Below, piece by piece: positions 18,682 through 27,951 of a DNA stretch of 33,506 nt; position 1 is the stretch's first letter; every line of letters begins with the position of its first letter. The stretch is taken from the NCBI GenBank assembly GCA_023380585.1, contig JAMCRN010000020.1:1-33506 (forward strand). Direction: 5' to 3'. The position numbers and the translations under genes were made by a program. The DNA is from Candidatus Parvarchaeota archaeon. Its GTDB lineage: Archaea > Nanobdellota > Nanobdellia > Parvarchaeales > Parvarchaeaceae. The notes under the pieces are model-generated. The model saw nothing but the letters and a program-made list of their open reading frames with translations, was not told the origin of the DNA and did not search any database.

Positions 18682-19704
18682 ATGGAAAATTCTGCCCAAA
18701 GTGGAGCTCCCGTGCAACAGTCTTCCATGCTCTCAGTATCAAGTAAACCACCATTGAAGAGTCACATTCTTAGGAACATAATAATAATCCTGATAATTTT
18801 ATTGATAATAGCGTACGTTTTATACCATTTTAACATATTAGGATTCCGTGTACTAGTTCACAATGTCGCTGCTAAAATAGGAATATCAAGCAGCACCACG
18901 TACTCCAGCGCGTTTTCATCCGTGACTAGCACTTCGCAGGCATCATCCGTAGTCTCCGATTATTTTAACAGCTCTCCGGGGTTTAATCTGAGCTATTATG
19001 GCTCTGTAAAACTAGATTTCTTAGCAGGAAACGCATCTTCTGGCGTATCCGCAGGATTTACACTGCCAATCTCCGCAAGTATAGCTAAATCGGATTATCT
19101 TTTCAGGGCCTCTTACTTAGCTAATCTATCCTCGCTATATGCGTTTATCAGGTCTATATTGCCTGCAACCAACACCTCAAACTCGTCTAAAAAACCGGGA
19201 TTAATAAGAGGGATGGTACTTTATAACGGGACCGGGGTCGTGGACTGTTACGGCCAGTCTGTCTTTAACTGTACATACACAAAGTCATACAATGCAAGTA
19301 GCCTATCAAATTCCACTTCTGAAGACCTGCTCGGAGCATTAGGTATAAATCAAAGTACAATCTCAGGTCTCTTCTCCCAGTATAAAGTAAACAGTAGCCT
19401 GTCGGGGGAAAATTCGCCTATACAGCTAAGGTTTTTGAAGAACGTCGTCTATTCTGGAAATACCTGTTCTCTTATGGAGATAAAAGACACGGGCAGCAAG
19501 ACCGCAAACGTTAATTTGAGCGGACAGGTGTGCTTTTCCAATTATATAGGATTGCCATTATTTCTGAATGCGCAGCTTTCCGTAGGTTCGACCATTCCTA
19601 CTCTGACCGTGGACTTTAACTTTTCATCGGTTTTGAACTTGTCCATACCGCCTTCCGCCGACATCATATCTCTTCCATCCGGTGCGAATATAAAAAGCAT
19701 TTGA
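18682..19704 (+). CDS. membrane-anchored, heavily N-glycosylated envelope protein (unknown)
   Basis: This 340-residue protein has a Ser/Gln-rich N-terminal tail, one strong membrane segment at about 31-49 and a long extracytoplasmic domain. The outer domain is rich in Ser, Asn and Thr, with more than a dozen NxS/T sequons. It has only four cysteines, in two close pairs along the chain (the VDC/FNC pair and the NTC/QVC pair), consistent with two disulfides. No catalytic domain is recognised. It ends 6 nt before the open frame of the next gene (first ATG 19711), so the two form an envelope operon. It may be a pilus accessory or S-layer-associated protein; this is inference. Confidence 0.85.
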   Translation: MENSAQSGAPVQQSSMLSVSSKPPLKSHILRNIIIILIILLIIAYVLYHFNILGFRVLVHNVAAKIGISSSTTYSSAFSSVTSTSQASSVVSDYFNSSPGFNLSYYGSVKLDFLAGNASSGVSAGFTLPISASIAKSDYLFRASYLANLSSLYAFIRSILPATNTSNSSKKPGLIRGMVLYNGTGVVDCYGQSVFNCTYTKSYNASSLSNSTSEDLLGALGINQSTISGLFSQYKVNSSLSGENSPIQLRFLKNVVYSGNTCSLMEIKDTGSKTANVNLSGQVCFSNYIGLPLFLNAQLSVGSTIPTLTVDFNFSSVLNLSIPPSADIISLPSGANIKSI

Positions 19705-19719
19705 GACAATATGTTTTCC

Positions 19720-20847
19720 ATGCGCAAATCCCAGTCAGCCTTAGAATACATGATGACCTATGGCTGGGCCATATTGATAATAGTCATCGTGGCTGCAGTC
19801 CTATACTCATTTGGGATATTCTCTCCATCATCTTCATTGCCGATAACTGTGACCGGTTTTTCAGGTTTTATAGGGACCAGGGCAGAATGCACTCCGGCAG
19901 GAGTACTTGTCCTGTCTTTGGACAATTCGATAGGCAACCTCGTCCTCATAAAATATGCAAATGCCACTTACAATGGCAAGACTTCTTCTACAAACGTTTC
20001 AGAGACGATAACCCCAGATTCCACTGGTAATATATTGATTCTAAATGGCTGTGCTAATGCTTCAAACGTCCATTTCTCCTCCAAAGTAACGATAGTCTAC
20101 ACAGAACCCGGGCAGCCGCTTCCAGGTCCATACATTAGCGTTGGTTATGTCACGGGCGTAACGTCTTCGTTTGTGCAGAATACGGTCGCTAACTTCACTG
20201 TAAACCAAAGTCAAATATACATCCCAAACTCGACAACTACTTATAACATGTGGCAGGGCGGCCCGTACACTTTTTCTGCATGGGTGAATCTAACATATGA
20301 CAGCGCTTCGTGTCAGCATTACCCCTGTGTAGCACTGATACAAGTAGAATATGGTTGTACTTCCGGGATAGAAGATTACAGGGCGAATTCCAGCGGCTTT
20401 TGGACAAATGAACTAGAGTGGAACGTTACACATACCTCATGCTCAAATGCTCAAAGTTCGCCGACTGTTTTCGTTCCTTTCAATAAATGGGAGCTTATAA
20501 CCGGCATCTTCGGATACAATATCTCTTCATCTAGTTATTATCTCACTATCTGCGTCGACGCCAGATGCGTAGAAGGCCCTTACACACTAGACCATCCCGG
20601 ATATCAAGGCACTGGTGCGACAGCAATTGGCGCATATCAATTATCTGGTAAAATAGCCAATGTTCAACTTTATGATTCTGTCCTTTCACAGGCACAGATA
20701 ACGACAATTTTTGACGAAGGATACGCTGGAATTCCTCCGACTACGAATGGATTAATAGTATGGTATCCTTTGGACGGTAACGCTAATGATTATTCTGGCA
20801 ATGGCAACAACGGTGTAATTTCCAATATACAATTCGTCCCGCCATGA
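19720..20847 (+). CDS. class III signal peptide (pilin-like) protein with LamG domain
   Basis: This is a 375-residue surface protein. The N-terminus MRKSQSALEYMMTYGW is the archaeal class III (type IV pilin-like) signal, cut before the Gln by a prepilin peptidase, followed by a hydrophobic helix that packs in the filament core. The C-terminal ~230 residues are a LamG/concanavalin-like fold ending in GLIVWYPLDGNANDYSGN, a pattern shared with the protein at 29179-31485. Eight cysteines, an even number, lie outside the membrane. Several N-glycosylation sequons are present. An in-frame ATG at 19711 is possible, but the shorter start matches the usual family form. It probably takes part in adhesion or a pilus. 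Confidence 0.88.
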   Translation: MRKSQSALEYMMTYGWAILIIVIVAAVLYSFGIFSPSSSLPITVTGFSGFIGTRAECTPAGVLVLSLDNSIGNLVLIKYANATYNGKTSSTNVSETITPDSTGNILILNGCANASNVHFSSKVTIVYTEPGQPLPGPYISVGYVTGVTSSFVQNTVANFTVNQSQIYIPNSTTTYNMWQGGPYTFSAWVNLTYDSASCQHYPCVALIQVEYGCTSGIEDYRANSSGFWTNELEWNVTHTSCSNAQSSPTVFVPFNKWELITGIFGYNISSSSYYLTICVDARCVEGPYTLDHPGYQGTGATAIGAYQLSGKIANVQLYDSVLSQAQITTIFDEGYAGIPPTTNGLIVWYPLDGNANDYSGNGNNGVISNIQFVPP

Positions 20848-20978: not shown

Positions 20979-22481
20979 ATGGAAAAATTTTACATAACCA
21001 CGCCGATCTTTTACGTAAATGATAAGCCACACCTCGGGACTGCGTTCACTGTGATAATAGCTGATGTACTGGCGAGATGGCACAGGCTTAAAAAAGAGAA
21101 GGTTTTCTTCCTTACTGGCACTGATGAGCATGGAGAAAAGATAGAAAAAGCCGCCAAGTCGGCTGGGAAGTCAACAAAAGAATTCGTCGACTCCGTTGTT
21201 TTGCAGTTCAAGAAAGCGTGGGAAAAGCTTGACATCTCATATGATAAATTCATAAGGACCACTGATCCAAAGCATGAGGAAGCAGTCATAAGGTTTGTAA
21301 AGCTTCTATGGAATAATGGAGACATATACAAGGGCGAATACATCGGATGGTACTGCGTGCCTGACGAGACATTTATAGCGGATTCGGAAGTCAAAGACGA
21401 GAAATGTCCGAATTGCGGAAGACCCGTAGAGAGGATAAAGGAGGAGGCATATTTCTTCAGGCTTAGCAGATACAAAGACAGGCTGCTTGGATTCTACGAG
21501 AAAAACCCGGACTTTGTGATACCGGATTTTAGAGGCAAAGAGGTAATAAACCGCGTCAAAGCGGGTTTGAACGACCTCGATATAACCAGGATATCGACAA
21601 CTTGGGGGATAGGATTCCCTTTCGATAAAAAACATACGATATACGTATGGCTCGACGCTTTGACCAATTACATAAGCGCTTTAGACTGGCCGGGCGGAGA
21701 AAAATTCGATGAATTCTGGCCTGCTGATCTGCACATAGTAGGAAAGGATATAAATTGGTTCCATTCTGTTGTGTGGCCTGCGTTTCTCATGTCTGCCGGT
21801 GTAAGCATCCCAAAGTCCATACTTGTTCATGGTTGGTGGACAGTAAGCGGTGCCAAGATGAGCAAATCTTTGAAGAACATCGTCGATCCATCGGAGTTGA
21901 CTAAAACATATTCTGCCGATGGCATAAGATACTTCTTACTAAAGGAAAAATCTATCTGGGAAGACGGAGATTTTTCAGAAAGCGCCCTGGCTTCGGCTAT
22001 AAATGGTGAACTTGTTTCTGGACTGGGAAATCTAGTCGCCAGGGTAACTACTATAGCGGAAAAGTTCAAAGGGGATATAAAGGGAAATGACGAAATCGAT
22101 GAATACATGTATAAAGTCTGTGGATTTGATTTAAGCTCCTTAATAAAGAAGGTAGACGACTGCCTGTGCAAGACGTACAGGACAGATATCGCACTTAAAG
22201 ACATAATGTCAGCCGTCGGCTGTCTTAACAAGTATATAACTGACAAGGAGCCATGGAAATTGGCCTCTGCGGAACTCGGTAACGTGCTGTATAATGTACT
22301 TGAGCCATTAAGGATAATATCTATAATTCTAAGGTCTTTTCTTCCCGAAACTGCTGATAGCATATTCTCCCAGATCGGCGTAGAGCCACAAGACCTTGAA
22401 AAGGCGAAGATGGAGCAGCATTTCACAGGGAAAGTAAAAAGGGGGAAAAACCTGTTCAGACTAGTTGAGATCTCAGTCTAA
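20979..22481 (+). CDS. metG: methionyl-tRNA synthetase, bacterial (Thermus/Bacillus) type
   Basis: This 500-residue class I synthetase charges initiator and elongator tRNA-Met. The opening FYITTPIFYVNDKPHLGTAF and the GTDEHGEKIE segment belong to the Bacillus/Thermus form, not the LPYANG form usual in archaea and E. coli. The first signature reads HLGT (18-21) in place of HIGH. The second is KMSKS (293-297), preceded by VHGWW. The connective domain has only three of the possible zinc ligands (C126, C143, C146). The C-terminal EMAP-like tRNA-binding domain is absent. The start is 5 nt after tRNA-iMet. The stop overlaps the next minus-strand gene by 9 nt. Lateral acquisition from bacteria is likely. 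Confidence 0.95.
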   Translation: MEKFYITTPIFYVNDKPHLGTAFTVIIADVLARWHRLKKEKVFFLTGTDEHGEKIEKAAKSAGKSTKEFVDSVVLQFKKAWEKLDISYDKFIRTTDPKHEEAVIRFVKLLWNNGDIYKGEYIGWYCVPDETFIADSEVKDEKCPNCGRPVERIKEEAYFFRLSRYKDRLLGFYEKNPDFVIPDFRGKEVINRVKAGLNDLDITRISTTWGIGFPFDKKHTIYVWLDALTNYISALDWPGGEKFDEFWPADLHIVGKDINWFHSVVWPAFLMSAGVSIPKSILVHGWWTVSGAKMSKSLKNIVDPSELTKTYSADGIRYFLLKEKSIWEDGDFSESALASAINGELVSGLGNLVARVTTIAEKFKGDIKGNDEIDEYMYKVCGFDLSSLIKKVDDCLCKTYRTDIALKDIMSAVGCLNKYITDKEPWKLASAELGNVLYNVLEPLRIISIILRSFLPETADSIFSQIGVEPQDLEKAKMEQHFTGKVKRGKNLFRLVEISV

Positions 22482-24461
22482 ATAAAAATCTTCTGCAAGG
22501 ATAGATTCATTTCCCAAGTCCAATCTCATTATCCTAAGAGTCCTTATGCTTTTGCTGTTTTCATACAATTTTGATAGCTTTATCATCGTTTCCAGTAACC
22601 CGTTTAAAATCTTAGACCTCGCAGATTCTACCAGGTACAAACCTGCCCATGAATTTTTGAATTCTGACAGGTCAGAATCCGATAATGGAAGCAAAAACTT
22701 GCTTTCCTCCGTATTTGTCGCAGGGCCATTAAGTTTTAATGAAAGCAGGCCGACTCCCGTATTTTCCACCATGGATATATTTAAATCCACTGATACCAAG
22801 TTCTCGTTTGTCTCCACTAATTCATATGAAGACTGTGCCGGTTTCTTATTCTTAGTTTCTCGCTCGAGCAGAGAGACTACATCTTTTAGTTCTTCTCGGT
22901 TATCTACTATGATTTCTTGCTTTTCGAGGTCGGTTTTTTTATCTCTATACAGTGTATAAACCTTTATTGGGAATCCTATATTTTCTGTCGCTTTACCTAA
23001 CTCTCTAATGTTTTCAGTTTTAAAACTTTTAGCCAGTCTTATTCCTACTTTGGCCATTGTGCGTCTTATCACTTCTTCCCCCATCTTTTTATCAAGTTTT
23101 ATCGACGGGTTTATCTTTATTTTATTGTACATCGAGAAGCTCGGCTTGGAGAAACAGCTGTGAATGTAAAGAGATTTTGCCAATGAAACAGCATTTCCAG
23201 GTCTGTCAAAGAAGTGCATGTTTTTTTCGGCCATCAGTCGCCGTCCTTTTTCTACCCTTAATCCACCTATGAAAACAGGCAGCAAAGTGATATCTTTCAT
23301 AGAATCCCTGGCTTCTACCAATTGCTTTGCCGTTTCTATCGGCATAGAAACTATATGCGGAGAAAAGACGAAGATTATCGGCCTGTTCAGTCTATACAGG
23401 ATGGATATTGCCTGCTTGTAGACTTCTGGAGGCGTCTCTGTTTCAAGGACTATCGGGTTATCCCCTTGGGAGTCCTTTGCTACGGTCTTATATAAGTCCG
23501 ATGCGACCGCATTTGTTAATTTTGCCAGCTTTAACCCGGAAGCTTCTATCGCGTTTTTTGTGATGTTTCCCATCGAGCTAGAATTCGTCAAAACTACCAC
23601 TTCATTGCTTTTCTGCTTCAAGCTCGGCGCATCCCTTATAAGCTCCGTGAACTCCACAAGGCTGTTCGCCGATATCCCTCCTATTCTTTTCAGTATTAGT
23701 TCATCCAGGTTCGATTTAGCCCTGTTCCTACTACATACCCCATAGTCTCCGCGTAGGAAGATCAAAGGTGTCTTCTCAGATATCTCTGCAAGCTCTTTAA
23801 TGTATTTGGCATAGCCCTCTATCTTTTCAGAATATATCGCTATAGCTTTGGTTTTTTCGTCCAGCGATAGGAACTGTAGCATCTTTATGGAATCTATATC
23901 GATTTCGTCGCCTATGCTTATTATCTTGCTGAACCCGATCCTCTTCATAGTCGCCATGTCCAATACAGCACTCAGGACAGGCCCGCTTTGTGATACGAAT
24001 GCGGTGTTTCCAGGGAAAGGCTTGTAATCTGGTTCTATGAACGTGCAATTATAATACGGGTCTGTATTTATTACACCTAATGAGTTTGGACCTATAACTC
24101 TTAGCCTGGCCTTTTTAAGGAAACCACTCAGTTCTTTCTTTAACTTCCCATTATCATTCGCGAATTCTGAGCTTATTATTATCGCTATTTTTATCCTTTT
24201 CTTTTCGCATTCCTTCAATATTTTAACCACAGTTTCCGCGTGCGTGGCTATTACGGCGATGTCAACATTTTCTTTTATCCCTGTTACGCTTTTATATGAC
24301 TTTAGTCCTTGTACCTGGTCTGTGTTTTGGTTTACAGGGAAGACGGCGCCGTGATAGCTTATTCTAAGGTTCTTCAATATGACACTGCCTGCCTTGGAAG
24401 GGTTCCTAGATGCCCCTATAACTGCTATCCCATCAGGATTTGTCAATTTTTCTATATCCAT
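22473..24461 (-). CDS. ADP-forming acyl-CoA synthetase homologue lacking the catalytic histidine
   Basis: This 662-residue protein has the alpha-beta layout of ADP-forming acetyl/acyl-CoA synthetase. A CoA-binding Rossmann domain (IAVIGASRNPSKAG near the start), two succinyl-CoA-ligase-like domains (IGPNSLGV, SQSGP, IGDEIDID) and a C-terminal ATP-grasp-like region can be traced. Family enzymes transfer phosphate through a histidine in a SHTG motif. Here the equivalent stretch (about residues 235-260) reads LRGDYGVCSRNRAKSNLDEL and has no histidine. The ATP-grasp region also lacks the usual HK(S/T)D segment. It is therefore probably not a normal synthetase. An open frame reaches a TTG at 24479, but the ATG at 24461 fits the family start and has a TATA-like TTTAATTTAA at 24479-24488. 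Confidence 0.85.
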   Translation of the reverse strand: MDIEKLTNPDGIAVIGASRNPSKAGSVILKNLRISYHGAVFPVNQNTDQVQGLKSYKSVTGIKENVDIAVIATHAETVVKILKECEKKRIKIAIIISSEFANDNGKLKKELSGFLKKARLRVIGPNSLGVINTDPYYNCTFIEPDYKPFPGNTAFVSQSGPVLSAVLDMATMKRIGFSKIISIGDEIDIDSIKMLQFLSLDEKTKAIAIYSEKIEGYAKYIKELAEISEKTPLIFLRGDYGVCSRNRAKSNLDELILKRIGGISANSLVEFTELIRDAPSLKQKSNEVVVLTNSSSMGNITKNAIEASGLKLAKLTNAVASDLYKTVAKDSQGDNPIVLETETPPEVYKQAISILYRLNRPIIFVFSPHIVSMPIETAKQLVEARDSMKDITLLPVFIGGLRVEKGRRLMAEKNMHFFDRPGNAVSLAKSLYIHSCFSKPSFSMYNKIKINPSIKLDKKMGEEVIRRTMAKVGIRLAKSFKTENIRELGKATENIGFPIKVYTLYRDKKTDLEKQEIIVDNREELKDVVSLLERETKNKKPAQSSYELVETNENLVSVDLNISMVENTGVGLLSLKLNGPATNTEESKFLLPLSDSDLSEFKNSWAGLYLVESARSKILNGLLETMIKLSKLYENSKSIRTLRIMRLDLGNESILAEDFYLD

Positions 24462-24479
24462 TATAATATGTGATTGCAA

Positions 24480-24627: not shown

Positions 24628-25923
24628 TTAGTAAGATTCGGTATTTTTTTTCTTTTTAAATCCTGTTTCACGCCGCGTCTTCGCAAGTCTTAGATAATAA
24701 GACAAAGGGTTTTTGATTAGTCTACAGGTTTCATCAGGGAAACATACGTTGAAATACTTGTAATAACCTGCCGCATCACAGTTCGGGGGAGGATACGCTT
24801 TGTTTGAGAATATGTAATTGACCTGCTGTGATATCAACATCTCCTTTAATGGAGGTTTGTTTTTCCGGTTCCATTCTAAAAGAAGGGACATAGTCTCTTC
24901 TTTCGTCTTCCCTATGTTCCTGTAAAAGTTAGTAAGTATGAATACGCTCCTCTTTTTTCCGTCGGAAAGTCCTGCGTCTATAGTCCTTATGCAGGGGGGC
25001 AGGAAACGCTTGTCAAGCGCGACGTTTTCTATCTTAAACTCTCCAGCGCGTTTTTCTTCTGCCTCTATCGGCTGGTACGCATCATAAGCCTCTACGAAAA
25101 GCCTATCAGATTCATGAGCGGACGGTTTTATGTCGAAAAAGTCCATATCAGCAATGACGTTTTCAGGCTTAGCTGATTCGATCTGAAAGTCTTGTATTTT
25201 GTTTTTGTCCAAAGGTACAGAAACCAACCATTTCTTTTCGTTAAGGGAATACTGCATCCTAAACATGTGCCTTTCGGAGATCAACACAGTGTCTATGTCT
25301 ACTACTGAATATGGGTTAAACTCGTCGTTCTCCTTCAGTTCTTTTTCAGGCTTTTTGAACATCTCAGCCAATCTTTTGACTCCATAGTCTTTTTCCAGGA
25401 ACTCCTTAAGCTCATCTCTTAACTGGTTCTTTAGGAATATAGATATCGTCATCGGTGCGTCAGGGAAAAGCTTCCTTGTCTCTATTCCGTTTACCTTCTC
25501 AGGGAATCCGCCGTATGGGACGAGTATATGGAACCCGCTTCCGCCACTGAACTTAACAGAAACAGTCCTTATTCCCTCGTCCGCTAATTTCTTTAACAAC
25601 ATCTTTCCGAACGTCTTTGATATCTCTAGCTGCTTGCAGTCTACGTCTATTACCAGGTCCCATCCTATTCGGTTCGATTCCAAGTCTGCATGGGAGGATT
25701 CCTTACTCAATGACAATGGATCGCCCCACCGCTCCTCACTTACATGGAAGCTTGTCGCTCCGTTTCTTACCAGAGCTTCTATCTCAGCAGGATATTGGAA
25801 GTACATCGGCCTCTTCCCAAAATTTTCCCCGTACCTTACTGCGCACTCTCTGTTTTTTACGCTGAGGAGCCTTTGGATCACATCATCTCTGAGATAGTAC
25901 CTGAGAATATCAGACGGTCTCAT
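24628..25923 (-). CDS. priS: single-chain DNA primase (PriS fused to PriL Fe-S domain)
   Basis: This is a 431-residue archaeal/eukaryotic-type primase that makes primers for replication. The catalytic PriS part has the metal-binding pair in IDVDC (D93, D95), the SGGSGFH motif (126-132) and a third acidic segment VDIDT (208-212) ahead of the conserved Arg/His positions. From about residue 305 the sequence matches the C-terminal domain of the large subunit. It begins LPPCI and keeps four cysteines, C311, C382, C394 and C400, in PPC, PNC, NVC and ETC contexts, as in the 4Fe-4S cluster of PriL. Single-chain primases of this kind are known from Nanoarchaeum. A TATA-like stretch (25946-25960) lies about 30 nt upstream. 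Confidence 0.9.
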   Translation of the reverse strand: MRPSDILRYYLRDDVIQRLLSVKNRECAVRYGENFGKRPMYFQYPAEIEALVRNGATSFHVSEERWGDPLSLSKESSHADLESNRIGWDLVIDVDCKQLEISKTFGKMLLKKLADEGIRTVSVKFSGGSGFHILVPYGGFPEKVNGIETRKLFPDAPMTISIFLKNQLRDELKEFLEKDYGVKRLAEMFKKPEKELKENDEFNPYSVVDIDTVLISERHMFRMQYSLNEKKWLVSVPLDKNKIQDFQIESAKPENVIADMDFFDIKPSAHESDRLFVEAYDAYQPIEAEEKRAGEFKIENVALDKRFLPPCIRTIDAGLSDGKKRSVFILTNFYRNIGKTKEETMSLLLEWNRKNKPPLKEMLISQQVNYIFSNKAYPPPNCDAAGYYKYFNVCFPDETCRLIKNPLSYYLRLAKTRRETGFKKKKNTESY

Positions 25924-26505: not shown

Positions 26506-27951
26506 ATGGACCAGGCTGGTTTGGAAAAATTCTTTTTGAACGGCATACTTGTCGATTCTTCCATAAAAAACGTTAGTATAGAAGACATAGATGCGCTGAT
26601 AGCAAAACTGAAAGAAAACAACGTAAATTTCCTCGACAATGCGTCACTGAAGAAATATCTTCAACAGGATTCTATGACAGAGGACACAGCCGTGGAGATA
26701 ATAAAGAACTATGACGGCAAGACGTCCGCGTCTAAGCCGTCTGATTGGGCGGCATATTTCAATGACAGGTTTAACAGGTTGAAAACGATATTGATGAACA
26801 AACAGACTAATGGCGTGACTTCCATCGCAAACTTAAAAAATGTGCCTTCAAACACACAAGTATCAGTAATAGCAATGATAGCCTCCGTCTCTATAAGTCC
26901 GATAAAGAAATATATGGTCCTGGACATAGAGGACAACACTGGCAGGTACAGGGCGCTTTCGTCCGTAATAAACCAGGAGATAGTCGATGACCAGGTGGTC
27001 CTTATAAGTGGCAAAAAGTCGAAAGACGCTATATTCATCGACGAGATAACATTTCCGGATTCGCTTGTAAAAGACGGAACAGACGTCGGCATAACCGACT
27101 CATATGCTCTTTTTCTGTCAGATATACATGTAGGCTCCAAGCTATTCGCGAAGAAAGAATTCGAACGCTTCATAGACTGGCTCTGCGGCAGAGAGGAAGA
27201 ATACGCATCCATATCCAAGTGCGTCAAATTCATAGTCATAGCTGGGGATATGATAGACGGGATAGGCGTTTATCCGGATCAGGAAAAAGAACTTGAGATA
27301 AAGAGCCTAGCTGGGCAATACGAGGCATTATACATGCTTTTGGACAGGATACCAAAGCACATAAAGATACTCCTATCCCAGGGTAATCACGACGCTACGC
27401 ATATCGCCGAACCGCAGCCTGTTTTAGACAGAAAATTCGGCGGAAGCATGTTCAACTTAAAAAACGCAGTCTTTCTGTCCAACCCATATCAGGTAAACCT
27501 TATAGTAGGGAACAAGAAGGTCAATCTCCTATCATACCATGGTTTCAGTCTTATGTACTATGTAAATTCGATACAGAAATACAATAAAATGACAGAAAAT
27601 GACATAATCTCCATAATGAAGCTTCAACTTAAATCTAGGCATCTAGCACCGACGCACGGCTCAGCACAGCTGATACCTCTGGACAGGGATTACTTGGTTA
27701 TAGACGAAACACCGGACATTTACGTTACTGGACACGTGCACAAGGCGGCCGCGGCAAAGTATAAGGAAACGCTCCTGATCAACGCCTCGTGCTGGCAGTA
27801 CCAGACTTCTTACCAGAAGAAATATGGCATAGAACCGGATATAGCCAAAGTGGTAGCTGTCAACTTACGCGATAAAACGTTTCAAATACTGGATTTTATG
27901 GGCGAAAAAGTTCAAATATCAAGAAAGGGAATAAAAGAAGAGGCGATCTGA
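26506..27951 (+). CDS. polB: DNA polymerase D small subunit (DP1), 3'-5' exonuclease
   Basis: This 481-residue partner of DP2 has a calcineurin-like phosphoesterase fold that proofreads. All metal motifs are intact: SDIHVGS (205-211), GDMIDG (247-252), GNHD (293-296), the SYHG histidine and GHVH (409-412). An OB-fold lies at about 110-190, and residues 1-70 form a helical head. Unlike the eukaryotic B-subunits, the active site is not degraded. The protein is near the lower end of DP1 lengths. It follows aIF1 by 36 nt and precedes tmk by 3 nt. DP2 is encoded 15 kb away. Confidence 0.96.
   Translation: MDQAGLEKFFLNGILVDSSIKNVSIEDIDALIAKLKENNVNFLDNASLKKYLQQDSMTEDTAVEIIKNYDGKTSASKPSDWAAYFNDRFNRLKTILMNKQTNGVTSIANLKNVPSNTQVSVIAMIASVSISPIKKYMVLDIEDNTGRYRALSSVINQEIVDDQVVLISGKKSKDAIFIDEITFPDSLVKDGTDVGITDSYALFLSDIHVGSKLFAKKEFERFIDWLCGREEEYASISKCVKFIVIAGDMIDGIGVYPDQEKELEIKSLAGQYEALYMLLDRIPKHIKILLSQGNHDATHIAEPQPVLDRKFGGSMFNLKNAVFLSNPYQVNLIVGNKKVNLLSYHGFSLMYYVNSIQKYNKMTENDIISIMKLQLKSRHLAPTHGSAQLIPLDRDYLVIDETPDIYVTGHVHKAAAAKYKETLLINASCWQYQTSYQKKYGIEPDIAKVVAVNLRDKTFQILDFMGEKVQISRKGIKEEAI

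Follow-up and report, generated by a model that had tools for sequence, protein, structure and literature searches.

A fused ADP-forming acyl-CoA synthetase homologue without phosphohistidines, possibly kept as a CoA-binding protein in a Parvarchaeota archaeon

In the fused ADP-forming acyl-CoA synthetase (ACD) Nmar_0206, phosphate has been proposed to pass from ATP to H535 in the ATP-grasp part and from there to H256, carried by a swinging loop that crosses ~30 A to reach the CoA site; in the homodimer (8WZU), the CoA pocket is made of subdomains 1 and 2 of one chain and subdomain 5 of the other (PMC11494057). The same scaffold is also known in a histidine-less form, since in Pat acetyltransferases, according to a review, the ACD domain is inactive for want of its catalytic histidine and regulates the enzyme by binding acetyl-CoA (PMC8556138). 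His-less ACD domains acting as acetyl-CoA-binding parts of bacterial acetyltransferases are thus already on record, and a pseudo-ACD is not a new category; a stand-alone, full-length ACD devoid of these histidines was not found in the literature that we searched.

Here, we analyzed a window of 33,506 nucleotides that makes up contig C20 in a draft genome of 702 kb (G000; 31 contigs, 83% complete, listed contamination 0.01). The relatives of this genome that carry names are Parvarchaeota/Nanoarchaeota MAGs, Ca. Acidifodinimicrobium mancum and Ca. Rehaiarchaeum fermentans among them. On the minus strand of this window, an ORF running from 24461 to 22473, stop included, encodes a protein of 662 aa (with an alternative TTG start upstream, at 24479) that its sequence identifies as a fused ACD homologue. 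It is convergent with metG (20979-22481, plus strand), the tails of the two genes overlapping by 9 bases, and the gene of the PolD small subunit (26506-27951, plus strand), a conserved marker, lies on the other side. Pfam recognizes CoA_binding_2 (residues 12-132) and Succ_CoA_lig (residues 150-251) in the protein, Ligase_CoA_2 (residues 288-388) as well as the NCBIfam acetate--CoA ligase models match below threshold, and the C-terminal ATP-grasp part is seen only via alignment and fold. Its sequence relatives in the PDB are ADP-forming acyl-CoA synthetases and PatZ. As in fused ACDs such as Nmar_0206 and the family members L002 and L005, the subdomain order 1-2-5-4-3 is kept in one chain, alignable over its full length to 8WZU and relatives and recovered in the predicted fold, and the CoA-binding domain is conserved; unlike them, the protein has lost both phosphohistidines as well as the HRD..FG and DxNP motifs, and its ATP-grasp_5 domain is undetectable.

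The CoA-binding half is the best preserved. Subdomain 1, a Rossmann-like domain (residues 1-132; 24066-24461, minus strand), retains the GASxxPxKxGS motif as GASRNPSKAGS and matches CoA_binding_2 (PF13380) with 78.8 bits, vs 77-84 in four intact relatives. The flavodoxin-like subdomain 2 (residues 150-236; 23754-24014, minus strand) keeps SQSG, and its PF13607 match stops at residue 251, at the expected position of the swinging loop. In the remnant of that loop (residues 237-258; 23688-23753, minus strand), the family alignment shows SHTGSLAG replaced by KSNLD, nine gap positions and EL, which places Asn251 at the phosphohistidine position His254 beside a 9-residue deletion (family residues are numbered here as in L002); no histidine is found in residues 237-262. 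Subdomain 5 (about residues 288-433; 23163-23600, minus strand) is partly eroded, its 13.5 bits against Ligase_CoA_2 (PF19045) falling below the cut-off and comparing with 40-50 in the four intact relatives. The ATP-grasp part (residues 448-662; 22476-23120, minus strand) is eroded further and gives no match to ATP-grasp_5 (PF13549), which scores 108-155 bits in the same relatives: AHKxxxGG has become YRDKKTDLEKQ, with Lys508 (codon 22938-22940, minus strand) in place of the second phosphohistidine, His523, and H582, D584, and F587 of HRD..FG are lost together with D663, N665, and P666 of DxNP. In the alignment to 8WZU, His254 and His523 fall on H256 and H535 of Nmar_0206, and both are present in 27/27 family ACD copies scored as intact. 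A sequence-only reading of this DNA had claimed a kept ACD domain order, an SHTG region without histidine, and an ATP-grasp part lacking the HK(S/T)D segment; Pfam, the alignment to a solved ACD, and the predicted fold bear out each of these points, and the damage proves wider than that reading had listed. The erosion is uneven, with 23/31 family-invariant columns kept in subdomain 1 and 27/32 in subdomain 2 (counted over alignment positions 131-235), 24/40 in subdomain 5, 3/9 in the swinging loop, and 8/28 in the ATP-grasp part. The difference between the CoA domain plus subdomain 2 (50/63) and the swinging loop plus ATP-grasp (11/37) is more than chance (Fisher p 1.6e-6). The CoA site is itself altered in places, for instance by a change of P74 to His.

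Among known proteins, the ACD domain of PatZ/Pat (9ISQ, 9IT0) offers a close likeness, being an ACD scaffold without the swinging-loop histidine motif, and PatZ is also the best whole-chain structural match. PatZ nevertheless keeps the HKS of its ATP-grasp part and carries a GNAT domain, whereas the protein studied here has neither, no acetyltransferase (GNAT) domain being found by Pfam in its ORF. This likeness, together with the additional losses and the missing GNAT domain, leads us to propose a stand-alone CoA/acyl-CoA-binding pseudoenzyme. Phosphate transfer between ATP and acyl-CoA would no longer be possible, CoA or acyl-CoA might still be bound (as a dimer if the 8WZU arrangement holds), and the protein would act by binding, as a sensor, CoA buffer, or scaffold, comparably to the His-less ACD portion of PatZ but with no acetyltransferase fused to it. 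The conservation of the CoA-binding domain to the level of intact enzymes is compatible with such a sensor or scaffold role. Alternatively, the scaffold could have been turned to a different reaction that needs no phosphohistidine, for which E. coli AllF (FdrA) provides a precedent, as this annotated putative acyl-CoA synthetase serves as a part of oxamic transcarbamylase (PMC11326118). AllF, however, works with AllG and AllH, and no operon partners of that kind are recognized at the ACD locus of the window; the FdrA-like entry 3DMY is a weak and distant fold match, and a single sequence offers no recognizable new conserved motif, so that we regard repurposing as improbable.

From a genomic perspective, it is informative that the same genome holds a second ACD, as the sequence-only reading had suggested looking for: L002, on contig C17, is fused, intact, and only 36% identical to the His-less protein. 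An arrangement in which the latter is a recent duplicate of L002 was rejected (p 1e-10). Instead, L002 nests within the ACD copies of genus g3, as sister to that of G031 (100/99; 84% identity), and since G000 itself is placed in genus g1, L002 was probably acquired from a relative. By contrast, many genomes of the family have an ACD that converges on metG and is flanked on its other side by the polD small subunit gene, for which reason we take this locus as ancestral and, on gene order, the His-less gene as the native copy. No acetyltransferase or 2-oxoacid oxidoreductase gene was found among the neighbors examined at this locus, and the GNAT genes present elsewhere in G000 showed no link to it. 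In several relatives (L038, L039, L043, and L047), argS adjoins the metG-locus ACD, with an arginase-family gene also adjoining it at L038 and L039; both genes are absent from the two His-less loci, that of the window and L034, described below.

The reconstruction above depends on C17 and C20 belonging to one organism. Were C17 to come from another, G000 would hold only the His-less ACD, a scenario that the fragmentation of the draft into 31 contigs and the discrepancy between L002 (84% to the g3 genome) and metG of G000 (only 57%) could invite. Yet the two contigs are alike in GC content and tetranucleotide usage (correlations of 0.60-0.78, vs 0.58-0.66 within C20), which argues against misbinning, the listed contamination is 0.01, a neighboring C17 gene is closest to g1 (82-84%) and not to g3 (75-76%), and the same layout recurs in a relative whose genome is 98% complete (G004); we consider such an artefact very improbable. 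If both genes do share a cell, the His-less protein might form mixed dimers with L002 and tune it as a regulatory subunit, which is conceivable because in enzymes of this kind two chains jointly form the CoA pocket, as in the 8WZU homodimer (PMC11494057), and which would suit the pairing of one intact with one His-less copy in 2/2 two-copy genomes. However, the apparent acquisition of L002 and its 36% identity to the His-less protein imply that the two have not long coevolved, which makes this arrangement rather unlikely in our opinion.

The arrival of an intact copy also raises the question of whether the native gene is simply decaying, its function lost and its frame still unbroken. Several features would fit this: the redundancy with L002, the loss of several unrelated motifs, a very long branch, and an amino-acid rate on that branch some three- to six-fold above that of intact copies. 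On the other hand, an ATP-grasp region drifting neutrally to its 35% identity would be expected to accumulate 7-9 stops, with a probability of at most 0.002 of finding none, the CoA_binding_2 score is undiminished, and a three-taxon codon model rejected omega=1 on this branch in 3/3 partitions (2dlnL 24.8, 27.5, and 12.7), although, because synonymous sites are saturated, this test averages over the time before the histidine loss and the absolute omega values are meaningless. AlphaFold likewise predicts a confident fold in all domains (pLDDT 85.7, pTM 0.81; only residues 239-250 below 50), with the isolated ATP-grasp part modeled at pLDDT 85.2 and matching the ACD1 beta subunit, DddX, and succinyl-CoA synthetases at modest TM-scores of ~0.6, even if input alignments dominated by intact relatives favor an intact-looking fold. 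The earlier claim of catalytic losses within an intact, retained ORF is upheld by these results: the catalytic residues are gone, and the frame is intact and, on an average over its branch, apparently constrained, as befits a putative pseudoenzyme. Retention for a function is accordingly the more likely outcome, and decay, despite the accelerated rate, seems to us unlikely. Overall, we put at about 0.5 the probability that this gene is a native, vertically inherited fused ACD that was relieved of its ATP-forming job by the acquired L002 and has since been kept as a non-catalytic CoA/acyl-CoA-binding protein.

We know of no orthologue in exactly the same His-less state, at the end of what is a very long branch. 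With the protein alone as query, GTDB contigs yielded no relative, and with an alignment as query they yielded 43 loci, the more distant of which, as far as checked, all keep the histidine except L145 (a 24% match without a recognized loop motif). Within the family, two full-length ACD copies are found in 2/32 genomes, G000 and G004, with the proviso that draft genomes may hide further second copies (in G018, one ACD copy is split over two contigs). In G004, a second species from the genus of G000, the metG-locus ACD (L034) has SIISSLID in place of SHTGSLAG, with Ile at the swinging-loop histidine, and the second copy (L012) is intact, stands at another locus, and clusters with the G012 copy. 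L034 is thus like the His-less gene of the window in its locus, in its lost swinging-loop histidine, and in coexisting with a second, intact copy at a different place in its genome. It differs in keeping the loop length, the ATP-grasp histidine, and HRD..FG, in matching ATP-grasp_5 with 121 bits, and in being only mildly accelerated. Of the two losses that the sequence-only reading had proposed to look for in related genomes, the first is therefore recovered in L034 and the second is not, a combination much like that of PatZ, where the swinging-loop motif is lost and the ATP-grasp histidine kept; L034, having only that loss, suggests that the swinging loop can be the first to go. The loop region is visible in 30 ACD copies, and the two His-less ones fall one per two-copy genome, for which random placement gives a chance of 4/435, or ~0.009 (computed post hoc); this distribution fits a loss that a genome can bear only if it still has an intact copy.

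The gene tree pairs the His-less protein of the window with L034 (86/85), as a single shared loss would predict, on a window branch as long as 2.41. Without L034, the position of the window protein does not resolve; without the window protein, L034 falls at the species-tree place of G004. Eight concatenated flanking genes set G000 outside the group formed by G014, G012, G004, G024, and G015 (100/99), and a gene-tree arrangement that places the window protein outside this group (group A) was not rejected (p 0.158). Since the two loops also differ in sequence, and since the flanking genes separate the two genomes, two independent losses appear favored, and a shared one is judged less likely. The acquisition of a second ACD may have twice independently made the metG-locus enzyme a retained CoA-binding regulator, with G004 at an earlier stage (one histidine lost) and G000 at a later one (both), in a natural repeat of the His-less change of Pat type; we offer this scenario as a speculative one that is more probably wrong than right by a good distance.

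Should CoA indeed be bound without catalysis, the protein would act as a metabolic sensor or subunit in archaea that are inferred to live by this very reaction, as ATP in the group of Ca. Acidifodinimicrobium and Ca. Rehaiarchaeum is inferred to come from acetate fermentation via acd, with korAB supplying acetyl-CoA (PMC7779479, PMC10134863). The G004 relative would then add a stepwise series showing how gene acquisition may be followed by the emergence of a pseudoenzyme. There is also an annotation trap, in that a His-less gene of this sort readily receives the name acetate--CoA ligase and is then taken for an energy-conserving step. A KorA-type gene is found in 12/12 genomes tested, and on contig C10 of G000, a succinyl-CoA synthetase pair (L003 and L146; 366 aa and 285 aa), whose 285-aa member has an intact GHAGA motif, adjoins the single KorA-type oxidoreductase gene of this genome.

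Other genes of the window deserve mention in their own right. A 431-aa gene (24628-25923, minus strand) has a weak small-subunit primase match of 25.2 bits, just under the cut-off, joined to a large-subunit match of 37.9 bits, and so has the appearance of a fused PriS-PriL primase; none of the relatives examined has a homologue of it at the matching locus. Next to a 340-aa ORF (18682-19704) for which Pfam gave no match, a plus-strand gene (19711-20847) encodes a pilin-like N-terminus (SQSALEYMMTYGWAILII) and, after it, a LamG-like lectin domain (PF13385, E 2.5e-7).
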